Assembly (NCBI GenBank): GCA_040752815.1
Contig: JBFMGC010000031.1
Span: forward strand, 1 to 33,353
Source: Candidatus Zixiibacteriota bacterium
Lineage (GTDB): Bacteria; Zixibacteria; MSB-5A5; GN15; FEB-12
Reading direction: 5' to 3'
DNA: 33,353 nt
The first letter of the stretch is position 1. Each line of letters starts with the position of its first letter. A model generated the notes under the pieces. It did not search any database and was not told the DNA's origin. It saw only the letters and a program-made list of their open reading frames with translations. The translations under genes and the position numbers were made by a program. Of the stretch, positions 2,913 through 33,244 are shown piece after piece.

Positions 2913-3740
2913 GTGGCGTATCTGGTGGCCGAACACGAGGTGTCGATTGGTCGGTCGTGTGCCGCAGTCGGGATGTCCCGAGCGGCCTGGTACAAGCCAC
3001 CGCAAGACCGTTTGGAGCGGGACAAGGAAGTGATCGAGGCGTTGACACGGGTCACCGACGAAAACCGTCGCTGGGGATTCTGGCTGAGTTATGACCGGTT
3101 ACGCTTTGAAGGCTACGGCTGGAATCACAAGCGGGTGTATCGGGTGTACTGCGAACTGGGGCTGAAGCATCGGCGGCGGACCAAGAAGCGCCTGCCGGCT
3201 CGGGACCGCCAGCCGTTGGATACGCCGTCGGTACCCAATGCGGTCTGGGCGCTGGACTTCATGAGCGACGCGCTCTATGTGGGACGTCGCTTCCGGACAT
3301 TGAATGTGCTGGATGAAGGAGTACGAGAAGCATTGACGATTGAGATCGATACCTCGCTACCCGGTGAACGGGTCATCCGAGTCTTGGAGCGGCTGTCGAC
3401 CTGGCGGGGGCTGCCACAGGCGATTCGTTGTGACAACGGCCCGGAACTGACCTCCCAGGTCTTTGTGGACTGGTGCCAGCGCATGAATATTGCTATCCGA
3501 TACATCCAACCGGGCAAACCTAACCAGAATGCCTTCATCGAACGATTCAATCGAACCTATCGCGAGGAGGTGCTGAACAGCTACTTGTTTGAGGATTTGG
3601 ATCAAGTGCGGGAGATCACGTACGACTGGCTGATCACCTACAACGAGCAACGTCCCCATGACGCCCTGGGTGGCCTGCCGCCAACGGTCTTCCGTGAACA
3701 ACAAACCGCCAAAAACTCTACTTATGAATTGTCTACTTGA
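2913..3740 (+). CDS. IS3-family transposase OrfB (DDE catalytic subunit)
   Basis: 275 residues from the first ATG, though the natural product is probably the OrfAB fusion. An HTH_21-like segment (residues about 30-90, with NRRWGFWLSYDRLRFEG) precedes the rve integrase core. The catalytic triad is visible: D115 (VWALDFMSD), D174 (IRCDNGPE) and E210 (NAFIERFNRTYREEVL), with 35 residues between the second Asp and the Glu, i.e. DD(35)E. The C-terminal YNEQRPHDALGGLPP is the usual IS3 ending. No disruption seen, so the element may still be mobile. Confidence 0.93.
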   Translation: MAYLVAEHEVSIGRSCAAVGMSRAAWYKPPQDRLERDKEVIEALTRVTDENRRWGFWLSYDRLRFEGYGWNHKRVYRVYCELGLKHRRRTKKRLPARDRQPLDTPSVPNAVWALDFMSDALYVGRRFRTLNVLDEGVREALTIEIDTSLPGERVIRVLERLSTWRGLPQAIRCDNGPELTSQVFVDWCQRMNIAIRYIQPGKPNQNAFIERFNRTYREEVLNSYLFEDLDQVREITYDWLITYNEQRPHDALGGLPPTVFREQQTAKNSTYELST

Positions 3741-26740: not shown

Positions 26741-27523
26741 ATGGACCGACCAGACCCTAACAAGGACTACCTGACCACCACTCAGGCGGCACGCCTGCTG
26801 GCGGTCTCACCCGATACGGTGCTCAAGTGGGTCCGGGCTGGGAAGGTCAAGTCATACCGCACCCTGGGCGGGCACTTTCGCATCCCGACTGGCGAATTAG
26901 GTGTTCTTGGCACCACCAAGTCTGCGCACCTTGGCGCCGTTGAAGAAACTACGCCCGTCATGCATCAGTACTGCTGGGAGTTTCTGGCGGCGGGCGGCGA
27001 GATCAAGCCCGAATGCCGTGACTGCATCACCTTTCGATCGCGAGCCCGCCGCTGCTATGAGCTCAAAGAGCTCCCAGGCGGGCTGGGCTGTCTCAACCTG
27101 ATGTGCGATACGTCCTGCACCGACTGCGAATACTACAAGCTGGTCCACGGCCAGGGGCTGAACGTGCTGATTCTCACCGGATCGAGTTCCATTCTGAAGA
27201 GCCAGGAGAAAGTGGAGCAGGTCGAAGGGCTCAGGGTGAAGTTTTGTGTCAGCGAGTACGACGCGGCTGTCGCCATTCAGTACTTCCGGCCCGACTATGT
27301 CGTGGTAGATTGCGCGTTCGGCAAGAAACGCACCGGCAGCATCTGCAACAGCTTATTTGGCGACATTCGCATTCCGGTGGCGCGGATAATTCTCTCATCA
27401 CGCAGTCGCGATATCGACGATTACTGCGATCGCGAAGTTTTCGGCTGGATTCGCAAGCCGTTCGATCTCGAACAGCTCAGGCAGTGCATCCGCGGGGTTC
27501 CGTCAATGGCTGATAATCAGTGA
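26741..27523 (+). CDS. HTH regulator with eight-Cys central region and degenerate receiver
   Basis: 260 residues. N-terminal excisionase/MerR-type helix-turn-helix (YLTTTQAARLLAVSPDTVLKW ... YRTLGGHFRIP, residues 10-50). The central part has cysteines at 78, 92, 95, 105, 117, 122, 126 and 129 (CWEF, PECRDC, RRCYEL, LGCLNLMC, SCTDC), similar to CW-type Cys-rich motifs; it could hold Zn or an Fe-S cluster. Residues ~139-258 follow a receiver pattern with D190 (YVVVD) and K239-P240, but the acidic pair is missing (NVLILTG). First gene of the operon, so it probably regulates it, with redox or metal sensing through the cysteines. That role is inference. Confidence 0.82.
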   Translation: MDRPDPNKDYLTTTQAARLLAVSPDTVLKWVRAGKVKSYRTLGGHFRIPTGELGVLGTTKSAHLGAVEETTPVMHQYCWEFLAAGGEIKPECRDCITFRSRARRCYELKELPGGLGCLNLMCDTSCTDCEYYKLVHGQGLNVLILTGSSSILKSQEKVEQVEGLRVKFCVSEYDAAVAIQYFRPDYVVVDCAFGKKRTGSICNSLFGDIRIPVARIILSSRSRDIDDYCDREVFGWIRKPFDLEQLRQCIRGVPSMADNQ

Positions 27524-27549
27524 GGATATGTATTTGCGAGGTTGTTGGC

Positions 27550-28158
27550 ATGGCTGATCAAGTCAAAGTGAGTAGTGAAGCGACACCGGCAGTGGATCGC
27601 ACTCAGGGTGACGCGTCGGATACACTCAAGATCAAGAAGACCACATTGCGCCTGGTGAAAGGGGATATCACCGTCCAGGCGATCGAGTCGTTCGTGTACT
27701 ATGCCCGGCCTGATCTGGCGCTCGGCTCCGGGTTCGGGACCGCAATCGCCCAGCGCGGCGGCCCGGCTGTGCAGGAGGAACTCAATGGTCTCGGGCCGCT
27801 GGCGACGGGCGACGTTGTCATCACCGCCGCCGGTGACATGAAGGCAGAGTACATCATTCATGCGGTGGGTCCCCGGTTTCAAGAGGAGGATCTGGAAGCG
27901 AAACTCAAACTGACTGTCCAGAACTGCCTGGTGAAAGCAGAGGAAAAGGGAATTCGGGCGATTGCCTTTCCCCCGATGGGGGCCGGGTTTTACGGCGTGC
28001 CGCTCGATCTCAGCGCTCGTATCACCCTGGGCGTGATCGGCGATTATCTGATGCGCCAGACCGGCATCACCGACGTCGTCGTGTGCCTGTTCGACAACCG
28101 TGAGTACCTGCCGTTCCAGAAACAACTGGCGGCAATAGCCGCGCAGAGAGGGAGGTAG
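27550..28158 (+). CDS. Divergent macro-domain protein
   Basis: 202 residues from the ATG at 27550 (GAGG 8 nt upstream); an in-frame earlier start would overlap the previous stop. Macro-domain pattern: LRLVKGDITVQAIESFV at the start, GFGTAIAQRGGPAVQEEL (ligand loop), GDVVITAAGDMKAEYIIHAVGP, and AIAFPPMGAGFYGVPLDLSARI. The usual Asn-Ala-Ala-Asn ligand motif is replaced by YYARPDLALGSG, so ADP-ribose binding or hydrolysis is not assured; another nucleotide-like ligand is possible. It lies 4 nt before the cytochrome-b-like gene. A macro domain in an electron-transfer operon is notable; its job there is unknown. Confidence 0.88.
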   Translation: MADQVKVSSEATPAVDRTQGDASDTLKIKKTTLRLVKGDITVQAIESFVYYARPDLALGSGFGTAIAQRGGPAVQEELNGLGPLATGDVVITAAGDMKAEYIIHAVGPRFQEEDLEAKLKLTVQNCLVKAEEKGIRAIAFPPMGAGFYGVPLDLSARITLGVIGDYLMRQTGITDVVVCLFDNREYLPFQKQLAAIAAQRGR

Positions 28159-28162
28159 GACA

Positions 28163-28840
28163 ATGAGCCTGGAATTCGTTCGCGGTACGCTTCATGATGC
28201 GGCTCTTTGTTTCATGGCTGTAGTCTACATTATTCGAGTTTACTGGCTGACCCGTTTTCCGGCGGGGATGGAGCGCCAGGCGCCGACCAGCGCGGGAAGC
28301 GCCAAACCCCGCAAGAGCATTGTCTATTCGTGGGCCAATGTCGCGATGCCGTGGGCAATGGAATCGACTCGAACCAAGTTCTTTCTCTATCTCCAGTTCG
28401 TGGTCTTCCATCTGGGTGTGACCGCGGCAATAGCGCTCATGTTTTCGATATCGTTTTACTTCAAAGGCGGCCCGCTGCCGCCCACACTGGCGACTATTTT
28501 TAGGATTGTCATCGGCGCGGCTTTTGTCGTCGGCTTGCTCCGGATCATTCGACGAATCAGCAATATCTACGTGCGGGCAATCAGCTCCCCCGATGACCAT
28601 TTCGCGGTCTGGCTTCTGACAGCCTGGTTCGGACTGGGTGTTCTGGCAGCGCCCAACGACTACAGCAACGGCGACTGGCAGGCATACGCGTTCTTCCTGA
28701 TGGGGTCGTTCTTCCTTGTTTATGTCCCCTTCTCGAAAATCTCACACTACCTGTATTACCCGTTTACGCGGTATTACTTAGGCAAAACCCTTGGCCGCCG
28801 CGGCGTATTCCCGATCAGGCGGGCGGCCCCGCAGCGATAG
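28163..28840 (+). CDS. Cytochrome b-type membrane subunit (NarI/TmcC-like)
   Basis: 225 residues, GGGAGG ribosome site. Five hydrophobic helices (about 8-30, 72-97, 107-129, 148-166, 172-195), the NarI/nitrate-reductase-gamma topology also used by DsrM, TmcC and HmcE. Histidines suited to heme b binding are seen in helix 2 (VVFHLG) and helix 5 (KISHYLYYPF). The partner HdrD-like gene starts 12 nt downstream, the usual pairing in which the membrane subunit passes electrons between the quinone pool and the cytoplasmic Fe-S protein. Quinone use and direction are inferred. Confidence 0.82.
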   Translation: MSLEFVRGTLHDAALCFMAVVYIIRVYWLTRFPAGMERQAPTSAGSAKPRKSIVYSWANVAMPWAMESTRTKFFLYLQFVVFHLGVTAAIALMFSISFYFKGGPLPPTLATIFRIVIGAAFVVGLLRIIRRISNIYVRAISSPDDHFAVWLLTAWFGLGVLAAPNDYSNGDWQAYAFFLMGSFFLVYVPFSKISHYLYYPFTRYYLGKTLGRRGVFPIRRAAPQR

Positions 28841-28852
28841 AGGATGTAACTG

Positions 28853-30604
28853 ATGGAAACCACGCTGACAACAAGATCACACAAAGCTGAAATCGTTATC
28901 GAGCGCCTGGGCAAGAAGCTCAATCGCCAGATTGTCGGTTCGCTGCTGGGCTGTGTTCACTGCGGCAACTGTATCGAGTCTTGTCATTATGTATTGGCGA
29001 ATCCGGGCGATCCCACCTACGCGCCCGCCTGGAAGGGCGACCAGTTACGGCGCATTTTCAAGCGCCACTACGACTGGACCGGCCGGATGTTCCCCTGGTG
29101 GGTGCACGCGAAAAGCCTCTATACCGATCAGGATCTCGAAGACCTCAAAGACATCGTGTTCGGCAAGTGCACGAATTGTCGTCGCTGCACGATCAACTGC
29201 CCCATGGGTGTCGACCTGCCCACGTTTAACCGTATGGCGCGCGGCCTGCTGGTTTCGGTCGGCGTGATGCCCGAGGGCGTGGCGGTAGTCAGCAAGGATC
29301 AGTGGGAAATCGGCAACCAAATGGGGGTGTTGAAAGAGGACTATGTCGACACCCTGCAATGGTTGACCGACGAGATGCGCATGGAATACGGAGAAAACTA
29401 CCCGGGTATCCCGATCGACAAGCAGGACGCCAATGTCGTTTACTCGATCAATCCGCGCGAGGTGAAGTACGATCCGAGGACTATCTCCGATGCGGCGATG
29501 ATTTTCAACGCCGCCGGCGAGGACTGGACTATGCCGTCGGAGGGCTGGGACATGACCAATTTCGGTTTGTTCTCCGGCGACGACGATTTGGGTGGGGCCT
29601 GCTCGCGCCGGTTGTTCGAGAAAGTACAGGAGCTGGGCGGCCGGACACTGGTTATCTCAGAATGCGGTCACGGCTACCGCTCCACTCGCTGCGAGGGGCA
29701 GAACTGGGCGAAGATGGATGTCGATTTCAGGATGGAGAGCTCTATCGAGACCATGCTTCGCTATATCAGGGAGGGGCGAATCAAAGTCGACAAGACCAGG
29801 AACGACATCCCGGTTACCTTTCACGACTCCTGCAACTACGCCCGCGGCTGCGGCGTGACCGAGGAGCCGCGCGAACTGCTGCAGCTCATCTGCTCCGACT
29901 TTCGTGAAATGTATCCCAATCGGGCCGAGAATTACTGCTGTACCGGCGGCGGCGGGGCGATGTCGATGTCCGAGTACACGCCCCGACGCTTGAAGTCCGC
30001 GAAGATTAAAGCCGATCAGCTTAAGGCAACCGGCGCCAAGATTGTCGTGACTACCTGCCATAACTGTGTCGACGGCTTGGCCGATCTGATCAAACACTAC
30101 AAGCTGGACATGAAAGTCACACAGTTGGTCAACCTGTGCGCCAACGCCCTAGTGTGGAAACCGGAGGTAGTGGCCGTTCCTGCCGAGGTAGTACCGGTAG
30201 CAGCAGTTGCTGCGAGCCTGGCCGGTTATCGCATACTTGTCGCCGATGATGAGCCGGACTTCGTGACGTTTGTATCAACGGTGCTGGAAGATCACGGCGC
30301 CACAGTGATTTCCGCCAGCGACGGCAACCGGGCGTTCGAGCTTGCCCGCTCCGAGAAACCGGATCTAATCACGCTCGATATCTCCATGCCCGGTAAATCC
30401 GGTATCGAAGTATTCGAGCTGCTGAGACACACTCCGGAGACTAAGCAGATTCCTGTTTGCATTATCACTGGCAAGCCGGAGATGCGGAAATTGATATACG
30501 ATCGTCCTGTCCCGCCGCCTGAAGGGTACCTCGACAAGCCGGTAGACGATGAGACGATCCTGTTCAACGTGCGCAAGACGCTCAAGATCGAGCACGTGGC
30601 ATAG
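28853..30604 (+). CDS. HdrD-like iron-sulfur protein fused to a receiver domain
   Basis: 583 residues. Two ferredoxin-type [4Fe-4S] motifs: C34-C37-C40-C44 (CVHCGNCIESCH) and C106-C109-C112-C116 (CTNCRRCTINCP). The middle carries the HdrD/DsrK/TmcB-type segment (AGEDWTMPSEGWDMTNFGLFSGDD, ECGHGY). Then a CCG domain: C327, C362-C363 (YCCTGGGG), C402-C405 (TCHNC). After a Val/Ala-rich linker (~436-457), residues 458-583 form a full receiver: D465-D466, phospho-acceptor D509 (LITLDISMP), T539 and K562 (LDKPV). Catalytic electron-transfer subunits are normally not response regulators. Phosphorylation may tune electron flow or docking; this is inference. Confidence 0.92.
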   Translation: METTLTTRSHKAEIVIERLGKKLNRQIVGSLLGCVHCGNCIESCHYVLANPGDPTYAPAWKGDQLRRIFKRHYDWTGRMFPWWVHAKSLYTDQDLEDLKDIVFGKCTNCRRCTINCPMGVDLPTFNRMARGLLVSVGVMPEGVAVVSKDQWEIGNQMGVLKEDYVDTLQWLTDEMRMEYGENYPGIPIDKQDANVVYSINPREVKYDPRTISDAAMIFNAAGEDWTMPSEGWDMTNFGLFSGDDDLGGACSRRLFEKVQELGGRTLVISECGHGYRSTRCEGQNWAKMDVDFRMESSIETMLRYIREGRIKVDKTRNDIPVTFHDSCNYARGCGVTEEPRELLQLICSDFREMYPNRAENYCCTGGGGAMSMSEYTPRRLKSAKIKADQLKATGAKIVVTTCHNCVDGLADLIKHYKLDMKVTQLVNLCANALVWKPEVVAVPAEVVPVAAVAASLAGYRILVADDEPDFVTFVSTVLEDHGATVISASDGNRAFELARSEKPDLITLDISMPGKSGIEVFELLRHTPETKQIPVCIITGKPEMRKLIYDRPVPPPEGYLDKPVDDETILFNVRKTLKIEHVA

Positions 30605-30639
30605 CGCGCGAGCGTGACTGCCCGGCAGAGGTGGCCTGC

Positions 30640-32082
30640 ATGGAAAACCAGCGACGTCGGTACAGTGATAAAGTCTTCGATGCCCTGCCCGGTTATCTGA
30701 CCGTGCAGGATCGGAATTTTCGCATAGTCGCCGCCAACGAGTCGTTTCGATCCGATTTCGGCGATTACCAGGGTCGCTTCTGCTACCAGGTTTACAAGCA
30801 GCGGCCCGAGCCATGCGAGGATTGCCCGGTGGCACGCACGTTCCACGACGGACAAAAACATCGGAGCGAGGAGCTGGTAAGAACGCTCGACGGCCGTGCG
30901 GTCTCGGTGCTGGTTTACACGACCCCGATTCTCGGGGAAAACGGCGAGGTCGCCGAGGTAATCGAGATGTCAACCGATGTCACGGAGTTGAAGAACCTGC
31001 AAAAGCAGCTTCGGGACAGCCAGCGCAAGTACCGCCAGTTGTTCGAGGATGTGCCCTGCTTTATCTCGATTCAGGATCGCGAACTGAATATTGTCGACGC
31101 TAACCGGCTACATCGGGAGACGTTTGGTGTCGGCTATGGCCGCAAGTGCTACGATGTGTACAAGCACCGCACCAAAGAGTGCGTGCCGTGCACGGTACAG
31201 CAGACCTTCCGTGACGGCCTCACCCACTCGCACGAAGAGGTTGTGACGTCTCAGACCGGCGAGACAATTAACGTGCTGGTCCACACCGCGCCGGTGCGGG
31301 GCGAGAACGGCGAGATCGAAAACGTGATCGAGATGAGTGCCGATATCACCCAGCTCCGCCAGTTGCAGGACAAGCTGGCCTCGGTGGGGATGCTGATCGG
31401 CACGATCTCGCACGGCATCAAAGGGTTGCTCAACTCGCTCGATGGCGGCATTTATCTGATCAATTCGGGCCTTAAGAAAGACGATCGGGCGCGGATCGAT
31501 AAGGGATGGGATATCGCGCTTCGCAATGTCGAGCGGATTCGCTCGATGGTGATGGACATACTATACTACGCCAAAGATCGCGAACCGAACTGGGAGACGA
31601 TCACCGGCAGCGATCTCGCCAAAGATGTCTGCAATCTGATGGTCGAGCGGGCGAAAAAGATGCAGATCGATCTGGAGTGCGCGATGAGCGGCGACGGCCG
31701 TTTCGAATGCGATCCGCAGATGATCCGCTCCCTGCTAGTCAACCTGGTGGAGAATGCGCTCGATGCCTGCCGCATCGACGCGGAGAAACCGTCGCATCAG
31801 GTGAAAGTCGAACTTCGGGAACAGCCGGAAGCGGTTCAGCTGGTGGTGACCGATAACGGTATCGGCATGGATCGGGAGACTCGCGAGAAGGCGTTCAGCC
31901 TCTTTTTCTCATCCAAGGGAGCGGGTGGAACCGGGCTGGGGCTGTTTATATCGAATAAGATCGCCCAGGCGCACGGTGGGCGGATACTGGTGGAATCGGA
32001 GGAAGGCAAGGGGAGCAGCTTTCTGGTTGAACTGCCGCGTCGCCGGCCACATATTGCTCCGACAGACGCGAATGTGACATAG
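30640..32082 (+). CDS. Histidine kinase with two cysteine-bearing PAS domains
   Basis: 480 residues from the ATG at 30640 (GAGG 8 nt upstream; a GTG three codons earlier is less likely). No membrane segment, so cytoplasmic. PAS1 (~10-115) and PAS2 (~133-240) each hold C-x10-C-x2-C: C48/C59/C62 (EPCEDCP) and C170/C181/C184 (KECVPCT). The H-box is atypical, ISHGIKGLLNSLDGG with H258. The ATPase core is complete: N box NLVENALDAC, G1 DNGIGMD, F box FFSSKG, G2 GGTGLGLFIS. Neighbouring receivers (the HdrD fusion and the stand-alone regulator) are the obvious targets. The cysteines suggest redox or metal-cluster sensing. Confidence 0.92.
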   Translation: MENQRRRYSDKVFDALPGYLTVQDRNFRIVAANESFRSDFGDYQGRFCYQVYKQRPEPCEDCPVARTFHDGQKHRSEELVRTLDGRAVSVLVYTTPILGENGEVAEVIEMSTDVTELKNLQKQLRDSQRKYRQLFEDVPCFISIQDRELNIVDANRLHRETFGVGYGRKCYDVYKHRTKECVPCTVQQTFRDGLTHSHEEVVTSQTGETINVLVHTAPVRGENGEIENVIEMSADITQLRQLQDKLASVGMLIGTISHGIKGLLNSLDGGIYLINSGLKKDDRARIDKGWDIALRNVERIRSMVMDILYYAKDREPNWETITGSDLAKDVCNLMVERAKKMQIDLECAMSGDGRFECDPQMIRSLLVNLVENALDACRIDAEKPSHQVKVELREQPEAVQLVVTDNGIGMDRETREKAFSLFFSSKGAGGTGLGLFISNKIAQAHGGRILVESEEGKGSSFLVELPRRRPHIAPTDANVT

Positions 32083-32100: not shown

Positions 32101-32481
32101 ATGGCCGAAAAGAAAAAAATTCTCGTTGTGGACGATGAACCGGATACGGTGGAGTGGCTGACAGCGTTTTTCGAGGACAACGGTTACGCCACGTCGTTTG
32201 CCTACGACGGCTTCGACGGCTTCGAAAAAGTCAAGGCCGAGGGGCCGGACCTGATCACGCTGGATATCTCGATGGACAAGGAGTCGGGGATCAAGATGTA
32301 TCGCAAGCTTCACGACGACAAGGAGGCGTCGAAAATCCCCGTCATCATGCTGACCGGGGTGACATCGGATTTCAAACGGTTCATCTCGACCCGCACGCAG
32401 GTCGACCCGCCGCAGGCGTATTTCGAGAAGCCGGTCGACCGCGAAGCGCTGCTCAAAAAGGTGCGGGAGCTGATAGGGTAG
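32101..32481 (+). CDS. Stand-alone receiver (CheY-like) response regulator
   Basis: 126 residues, one complete receiver: acidic pair in LVVDDEP, phospho-acceptor in LITLDISMD, Thr in MLTG and the Lys in FEKPVD. It resembles the receiver fused to the HdrD-like protein more than generic ones: both share the PDLITLDISM string and a short insertion with R...PPxxYxxKPVD before the Lys. They are probably duplicates served by the same kinase. No output domain, so it acts by protein contact or as a phosphate sink. Last gene of the operon. Confidence 0.92.
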   Translation: MAEKKKILVVDDEPDTVEWLTAFFEDNGYATSFAYDGFDGFEKVKAEGPDLITLDISMDKESGIKMYRKLHDDKEASKIPVIMLTGVTSDFKRFISTRTQVDPPQAYFEKPVDREALLKKVRELIG

Positions 32482-32730: not shown

Positions 32731-32788
32731 AACCCGCCGCAACTCCCGCAACTTCTTGGGTCCTCCCGCGATAATCTATCGAAAGTTC

Positions 32789-32819
32789 TTGACCCGGTAC
32801 TTTGGTACAGGGTTTATCT
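32789..32819 (+). promoter_or_regulatory. MerR-type promoter with 19-bp spacer and dyad operator
   Basis: TTGACC (32789-32794), a 19-bp spacer and TTATCT (32814-32819). The spacer holds the dyad ACCCGGTAC-TTTG-GTACAGGGT (32792-32813), arms matching at 8 of 9 positions. Overlong 19-bp spacers with a central dyad are the hallmark of promoters that MerR-family activators untwist. Located just upstream of the merR-like gene, so autoregulation is likely. Confidence 0.75.
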
Positions 32820-32848
32820 TTGGGAGAACAAACGGAGGTGCGCGAGCG

Positions 32849-33244
32849 ATGTTGATAGGAAAAGTCGCCCAGGCAGCCGGTGTCAATATCCAGACGCTGC
32901 GGTATTACGAACGGCGCGGCCTGGTCAGGTCGCCGGTTCGACGATCATCGGGCTACCGCGAGTATCCCCCGGACGCGGTCGACCGGATTCGCTTTGTAAA
33001 ACGATCTCAGGAGCTCGGCCTTACGCTGGCTGAAATCGGTGAGCTTCTTAGGCTCAGAGAAAGTCAACGGGCACGCTGCAGCGATGTGCGCCATAGAACG
33101 CAGTTGAAAATCGCCGAGATTGACAACAAGATCAGGAGCCTGACCGCCATGAGGAGCGCACTGGCAGTGTTGCTCAGGTCGTGTTCCTCCAACGCGACGG
33201 TCAGATACTGCCCGATTATAGAATCCCTAGAGCCCATTTCATAA
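32849..33244 (+). CDS. MerR-family metal-responsive regulator, mercury-type cysteine triad
   Basis: 131 residues from the ATG at 32849, which has GGAGG upstream; the longer ORF start runs through the promoter. N-terminal winged HTH (MLIGKVAQAAGVNIQTLRYYERRGLV ... SGYREYP), then a dimerisation helix and metal-binding end. Cysteines C77, C112 and C121 are spaced C-x34-C-x8-C, the spacing of the Hg(II) ligands in MerR (C82, C117, C126 in the Tn501 protein). Hg(II) sensing is therefore likely, though related thiophilic metals are possible. No mer transport or reductase gene is seen; the only downstream gene is cut by the window end. Confidence 0.9.
   Translation: MLIGKVAQAAGVNIQTLRYYERRGLVRSPVRRSSGYREYPPDAVDRIRFVKRSQELGLTLAEIGELLRLRESQRARCSDVRHRTQLKIAEIDNKIRSLTAMRSALAVLLRSCSSNATVRYCPIIESLEPIS

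Follow-up and report, generated by a model that had tools for sequence, protein, structure and literature searches.

A widespread, apparently uncharacterised iron-sulfur electron-transfer subunit with a covalently attached receiver domain in mostly Dsr-bearing bacteria

In dissimilatory sulfite reduction, DsrC acts as the sulfur-carrier protein. The complexes closest to the one described here, DsrMK, Tmc and Hmc, are of a kind that joins a membrane cytochrome b to an iron-sulfur subunit. DsrMK is known to reduce DsrC-trisulfide (PMC10504309); for Hmc and Tmc, DsrC has been put forward as the partner on the cytoplasmic side (PMC4215793). Hmc contains multihaem cytochrome and NrfD-type subunits (PMC4215793, PMC10924467), and published Hmc loci adjoin response regulators and kinases (PMC5109826; PMC10924467); PMC10924467, citing Keon 1997, gives Rrf1 and Rrf2 as Hmc regulators. 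In the Tmc complex of Desulfovibrio (TmcB, NF045724; TmcC, NF045723) the gene order is cytochrome b followed by the iron-sulfur subunit, and Tmc-type loci encode a receiver of the DVU0259 type (NF045717) nearby as a separate protein. Within our sample of 297 Desulfobacterota genomes, TmcB-type operons carry a receiver of this family within ~0.5-2.4 kb. The literature searched yielded no paper under the gene names DVU0258, DVU0259 or DVU0260, and no description of a CCG-receiver fusion; the search missed most subscription journals, so this absence is only moderate evidence.

The window, by which we mean the whole 33,353-nucleotide stretch of DNA analysed (contig JBFMGC010000031.1 of a Candidatus Zixiibacteriota bacterium), contains at 28853..30604 (+) a single, stop-free open frame of 583 amino acids. 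Domain scans, alignment and a structural model identify the product as an HdrD/TmcB/HmcF/DsrK-like iron-sulfur subunit with a C-terminal receiver (REC). Pfam searches returned Fer4_8 (residues 31-120, E 1.6e-9), CCG (321-405, E 1.4e-11) and Response_reg (PF00072; 461-570, E 1.1e-18), all above cut-off. An earlier note on this DNA had described two [4Fe-4S] motifs, a CCG domain, a Val/Ala linker and a complete receiver, and this description holds. The [4Fe-4S] motifs are formed by C34/37/40/44 and C106/109/112/116, the CCG domain provides one complete motif (C327...C362C363...C402xxC405), and in an alignment of 81 fused proteins all of these cysteines are invariant or nearly so. The receiver spans residues 458-580, with its key residues at the positions the note had listed. 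The phosphoacceptor D509 is conserved in 81/81 sequences, D465, D466 and K562 in 80/80 with one gap, and position 539 is Thr in 73 and Ser in 8. The domain thus has the acidic pair, phosphoacceptor Asp, Thr/Ser and Lys of a phosphorylation-competent receiver. We also observed a cysteine, C536 (window 30458-30460), three residues ahead of T539 and conserved in 75/81 fused proteins; it has no counterpart in the lone receiver of the window and is possibly of redox relevance.

The linker, at ~436-457, is rich in Val, Ala and Pro and variable, the stretch 430-460 spanning 17 to 50 amino acids among the aligned sequences. An AlphaFold2 model built on a 50-sequence alignment (mean pLDDT 87.7, pTM 0.71) consists of two well-folded parts, and its only long low-confidence stretch is the linker at 438-452 (pLDDT <50). 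With Foldseek, one part of the model retrieved EtfD and HdrB-type structures and the other the receivers PhoP, RR468 and DivK. The variable linker and the pTM value would argue against a rigid, built-in switch. We obtained dN values of 0.10-0.14 for the HDR part and 0.14-0.22 for the REC part, with dS saturated in nearly all comparisons, so that no useful dN/dS ratio results; judged from low dN against saturated dS, the fused protein is under strong purifying selection.

HdrD combines two 4Fe-4S motifs with two CCG domains, each with its full set of cysteines. The window protein has one complete CCG domain only (321-405), its first CCG half retaining just E270-C271-G-H273 and C280, and membership of HdrD was therefore rejected. 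The earlier note had called the subunit HdrD-like; the nearest named families are HmcF, TmcB and DsrK rather than HdrD. Among NCBIfam models the best match was HmcF (NF045711) at 312.9 bits against a cut-off of 750, followed by TmcB at 307.3 bits (cut-off 735) and DsrK (NF045796) at 239.6 bits (cut-off 400). Simple membership of any of the three was rejected on these scores. At the superfamily level the protein is of the HmcF/TmcB/DsrK type: it combines a pair of [4Fe-4S] motifs and a single complete CCG motif with a TmcC/HmcE-like cytochrome b encoded next to it. Since these three models rank first and none reaches its cut-off, we assign it to this type, yet to a family of its own.

The likeness to the described complexes can be drawn more finely. 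Like Tmc, the window locus pairs a cytochrome b and an iron-sulfur subunit of this kind in the same order, and its receivers belong near the DVU0259 family, the model of which (NF045717) is the top-scoring receiver model for both the fused REC (78.7 bits) and the lone REC (107.9 bits), although neither reaches the cut-off of 160. Unlike in Tmc-type loci, the receiver is part of the subunit itself, and the window cassette has no recognisable periplasmic cytochrome of the TmcA type. Hmc (HmcF; HmcE, NF045716) provides the best model for the iron-sulfur part and also has regulators adjoining its operons, but Hmc has no receiver fusion and the window protein is far under the HmcF cut-off. With DsrMK the locus shares a cytochrome b and a CCG iron-sulfur subunit, found in the same genomes and at times the same neighbourhood, whereas the true DsrK of the host is another gene (C55, 713 bits) and the window protein stays under the DsrK cut-off.

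To see how widespread the fusion is we scanned GTDB genome contigs and recovered 208 relatives. The fused set comprises the best 80 of these loci: all have the fused layout, with identities of 65-83%, and a few are clipped by contig ends. They cover 15 named phyla, among them Zixibacteria, Acidobacteriota, Myxococcota, Thermodesulfobacteriota, Planctomycetota, Calditrichota and Gemmatimonadota, with 17 loci lacking a phylum name, and three come from contigs with chromosome in the title (CP070813, CP070812 and CP070717). An artefact or meaningless fusion, whether an assembly join, a frameshift or a decaying passenger domain, is hardly credible in the light of these loci. The phosphorylation residues are conserved and the receiver part is predicted to fold confidently as a receiver, and we found no point in support of such an origin. 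The missed stop, frameshift or assembly join that the earlier note had named as fatal to its reading is excluded in practice by the same layout recurring in 80 independent loci. The note had also known of no standard family with this layout. Such a layout nevertheless occurs widely in Dsr-bearing bacteria and is not confined to the window, and unfused versions with a neighbouring receiver gene exist. It is common, then, though no characterised example was found in the literature searched. The fused family appears to be a widespread and apparently uncharacterised combination of a known type of electron-transfer subunit with a covalent regulatory domain.

In the window the fused gene sits in a tight operon, with intergenic gaps of 4-26 bp and a 4-bp overlap at 27520, in the order HTH-Cys regulator, macro, cytochrome b, HdrD-REC, PAS-PAS kinase and lone receiver. 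The cytochrome b subunit (28163..28840, +; 225 aa) ranks with TmcC/HmcE in NCBIfam, below cut-off, and its H83 and H195 are conserved in 98-100% of 59 sequences. Across the fused loci the recurring order is macro, cytochrome b, HdrD-REC, kinase, REC. Counting those of the 80 loci with enough flank, cytochrome b lies upstream in 76/76, a macro gene is present in 73/73, a kinase follows directly in 66/68 and a lone REC is found in 55/66. The macro-domain protein (27520..28158, +; 212 aa) is the constant first member of the cassette and keeps both phosphate-binding (ligand) loops, while its catalytic NAAN has become YYAR; with the loops kept and the NAAN lost, it may be an ADP-ribose- or NAD-related reader.

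The histidine kinase (30631..32082, +) has two PAS domains and a conserved phospho-acceptor, H261. Both PAS domains carry a C-x10-C-x2-C motif, conserved to at least 95% among 65 kinases, and the second has a fourth conserved cysteine, C143, a pattern that suggests a metal or Fe-S redox sensor. Downstream lies the stand-alone DVU0259/DivK-type receiver (32101..32481, +; 126 aa), which shares 43% identity with the fused receiver. The first gene of the window operon (26741..27523, +) encodes a MerR/excisionase-type HTH, seven invariant cysteines and a degenerate receiver, and is the probable transcription factor of the operon. The upstream regulator varies among the fused loci, being HTH-Cys, Rrf2, a sigma-54 PAS regulator or MerR-Cys, with Rrf2-type genes upstream in 13/64 loci; relatives of the HTH-Cys regulator occur in 22 loci and lie upstream of the cassette mainly in Zixibacteria. 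This HTH/7-Cys family with its degenerate receiver, which has further members at L137:6825-7655 and L060:10249-11118, adjoins DsrC-cytb-HDR operons as well as fused cassettes, and is a candidate for redox-sensing transcriptional control of dsr-type genes. Elsewhere in the window we noted an IS3-like integrase/transposase ORF (2913-3737) with HTH_21 and rve_3 domains, and a MerR-family regulator (32756-33244) near mercury-resistance MerR (137 bits, with 151 needed) that has no mer gene between it and the window end.

The cassette is tied to dissimilatory sulfite reductase. In a sample of 132 genomes from the host phylum the fused protein, fragments included, was found in 34 and DsrA in 52, with both in 30; DsrA is therefore present in 30/34 genomes with the fused gene and 22/98 of the others (Fisher p ~1e-11, relatedness ignored). 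Among fused-gene genomes of the phylum that are at least 90% complete the figure is 22/23, and in a set of fused-gene genomes drawn mostly from other phyla it is 43/50. The 22 DsrA-bearing genomes of the host phylum that lack the fusion show that it is not essential for Dsr. The host genome itself carries DsrAB, DsrK and AprA; a search for DsrD gave no match in the host, and the control genomes were likewise matchless. Of the 80 fused loci, 18 have a dsrM, dsrC, dsrN or dsrAB gene no more than 7 kb away, and in four (L048, L064, L070 and L077) the cassette is placed between dsrAB-dsrN-dsrC and dsrM.

The gene dsrC is rarely inside the fused operon itself, a point against DsrC as partner. It stands first in the operon of the nearest unfused relatives in the host phylum (L124-L134). 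These are 40-43% identical to the fused subunit and form a strict three-gene DsrC-cytb-HDR operon in 11/11 loci, with the same type of cytochrome b; for this operon we found no name. It differs from the fused cassette in having DsrC at its head and being without receiver, kinase or macro gene. The DsrC proteins end in ACKLAG...DGCV, with both conserved cysteines of true DsrC. Their genomes gave no match to DsrA, so that these Zixibacteria apparently have DsrC-linked electron transfer without sulfite reductase. Together with the precedents of DsrMK, Hmc and Tmc, the operon of these sisters makes DsrC, on grounds of genomic association, the likely redox partner of the fused complex. In an Elusimicrobia locus (L060:8745-9491) an ORF with two tandem DsrC/TusE-like domains follows ~11 bp after the fused gene.

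Taken as a whole, the best explanation is a quinone/DsrC-type electron-transfer complex in which phosphorylation sets activity or docking, and to this we would give an even chance. In a membrane complex of two subunits, of the kind of DsrMK, TmcCB and HmcEF, the fused protein would form the catalytic, cytoplasmic part and the cytochrome b encoded just upstream the other. The complex would move electrons between the quinone pool and either DsrC or a thiol/disulfide protein resembling it. The receiver would be phosphorylated at D509 by the Cys-rich PAS kinase encoded alongside, a probable sensor of redox state. Phosphorylation would change the contact of the receiver with the CCG active site, DsrC or the complex, tuning electron flow after translation, while the lone downstream receiver may relay the signal or compete for phosphate and the HTH/Cys-rich regulator would handle transcription. 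The direct switch on electron flow proposed in the earlier note gains from this comparison a phosphorylation-competent, covalently attached receiver that is found across phyla beside a kinase gene; we infer both the pairing of that kinase with the receiver and the change in electron flow.

The main rival reverses the direction of the signal. Here the complex would be a redox sensor whose subunit reads the state of the quinone or of DsrC thiols, and the tethered receiver would report it to the kinase and also to the lone receiver; these two would then drive transcription, electron flow itself being unregulated. Signalling genes dominate the operon (HTH-Cys regulator, Cys-rich PAS kinase and lone REC), sigma-54 or Rrf2 regulators lie upstream in other phyla and the cassette shows no recognisable periplasmic cytochrome subunit, all of which would fit. 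The subunit is, however, conserved like an enzyme, with every cluster ligand invariant; it co-occurs with the Dsr pathway, and its unfused relatives belong to plain DsrC operons that have neither a kinase nor a receiver. Receivers are moreover normally recipients of phosphate rather than controllers of kinases, and we consider this reversed reading unlikely.

The origin of the fused receiver can be followed among unfused relatives. In the sample of 297 Desulfobacterota genomes, four loci (L178, L186, L187 and L188) have operons of cytochrome b, HDR, REC and kinase in which the first REC is separate from the HDR gene; in three of them (L178, L186 and L187) the kinase is followed by another REC. 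In the receiver tree the fused RECs form one clade (100/99), the sister of which consists of RECs encoded directly after an unfused HDR (90/83), and most of the lone receivers of the cassettes fall in another clade (99/92). The fusion probably arose once, by the joining of two neighbouring genes. Descent by duplication of the lone receiver gene at 32101 was rejected for the fused REC, as most lone RECs form their separate clade and the fused ones group with the RECs that follow unfused HDR genes. One related lineage has a 62%-identical subunit without a fused receiver, and most of its members retain a separate receiver and kinase downstream; in two of them (L179 and L182) universal-stress-like and HEAT-repeat-like proteins are encoded between the subunit and these genes. 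The lineage nests within the fused clade of the HDR tree, so that secondary loss of the REC is the simpler and probable reading and a pre-fusion state is less likely, although one deep branch is weak (91/49).

This apparent loss, in a lineage that mostly has a separate receiver, also bears on whether the receiver does anything to catalysis. It could serve as a tether, a dimerisation domain or a phosphate sink that recruits the kinase or buffers the phosphate of the lone receiver, an idea in keeping with the flexible linker of variable length and with the second receiver within the same operon. Against it, the same receiver family is linked repeatedly to this type of subunit, in TmcB/HmcF-type loci, as a separate gene and in the fused clade. 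Such repeated linkage, fused or separate, points to the subunit as the target of the receiver, and we regard a mere tether or sink as improbable.

Two-component systems are known mainly for the control of transcription and motility. A receiver fused to a respiratory catalytic subunit and kept with a kinase in ~15 phyla, mostly in Dsr-bearing genomes, suggests that a respiratory enzyme is itself a direct target of two-component signals, and makes phospho-control of anaerobic respiration a concrete hypothesis. The fused gene also offers a Rosetta-stone hint as to what the separate receivers beside TmcB-type genes may act on. In its fullest form, which we put forward tentatively and rate somewhat short of an even chance, a two-component kinase would control a respiratory complex directly through a receiver built into its catalytic subunit, a post-translational switch on dissimilatory sulfur respiration across phyla. 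The DVU0259-type receivers close to TmcB-type genes would then be accounted for as well, as acting on the TmcB-type subunit. The cassette also marks an uncharacterised electron-transfer complex, for which genomes of sulfur-cycling organisms can be searched.
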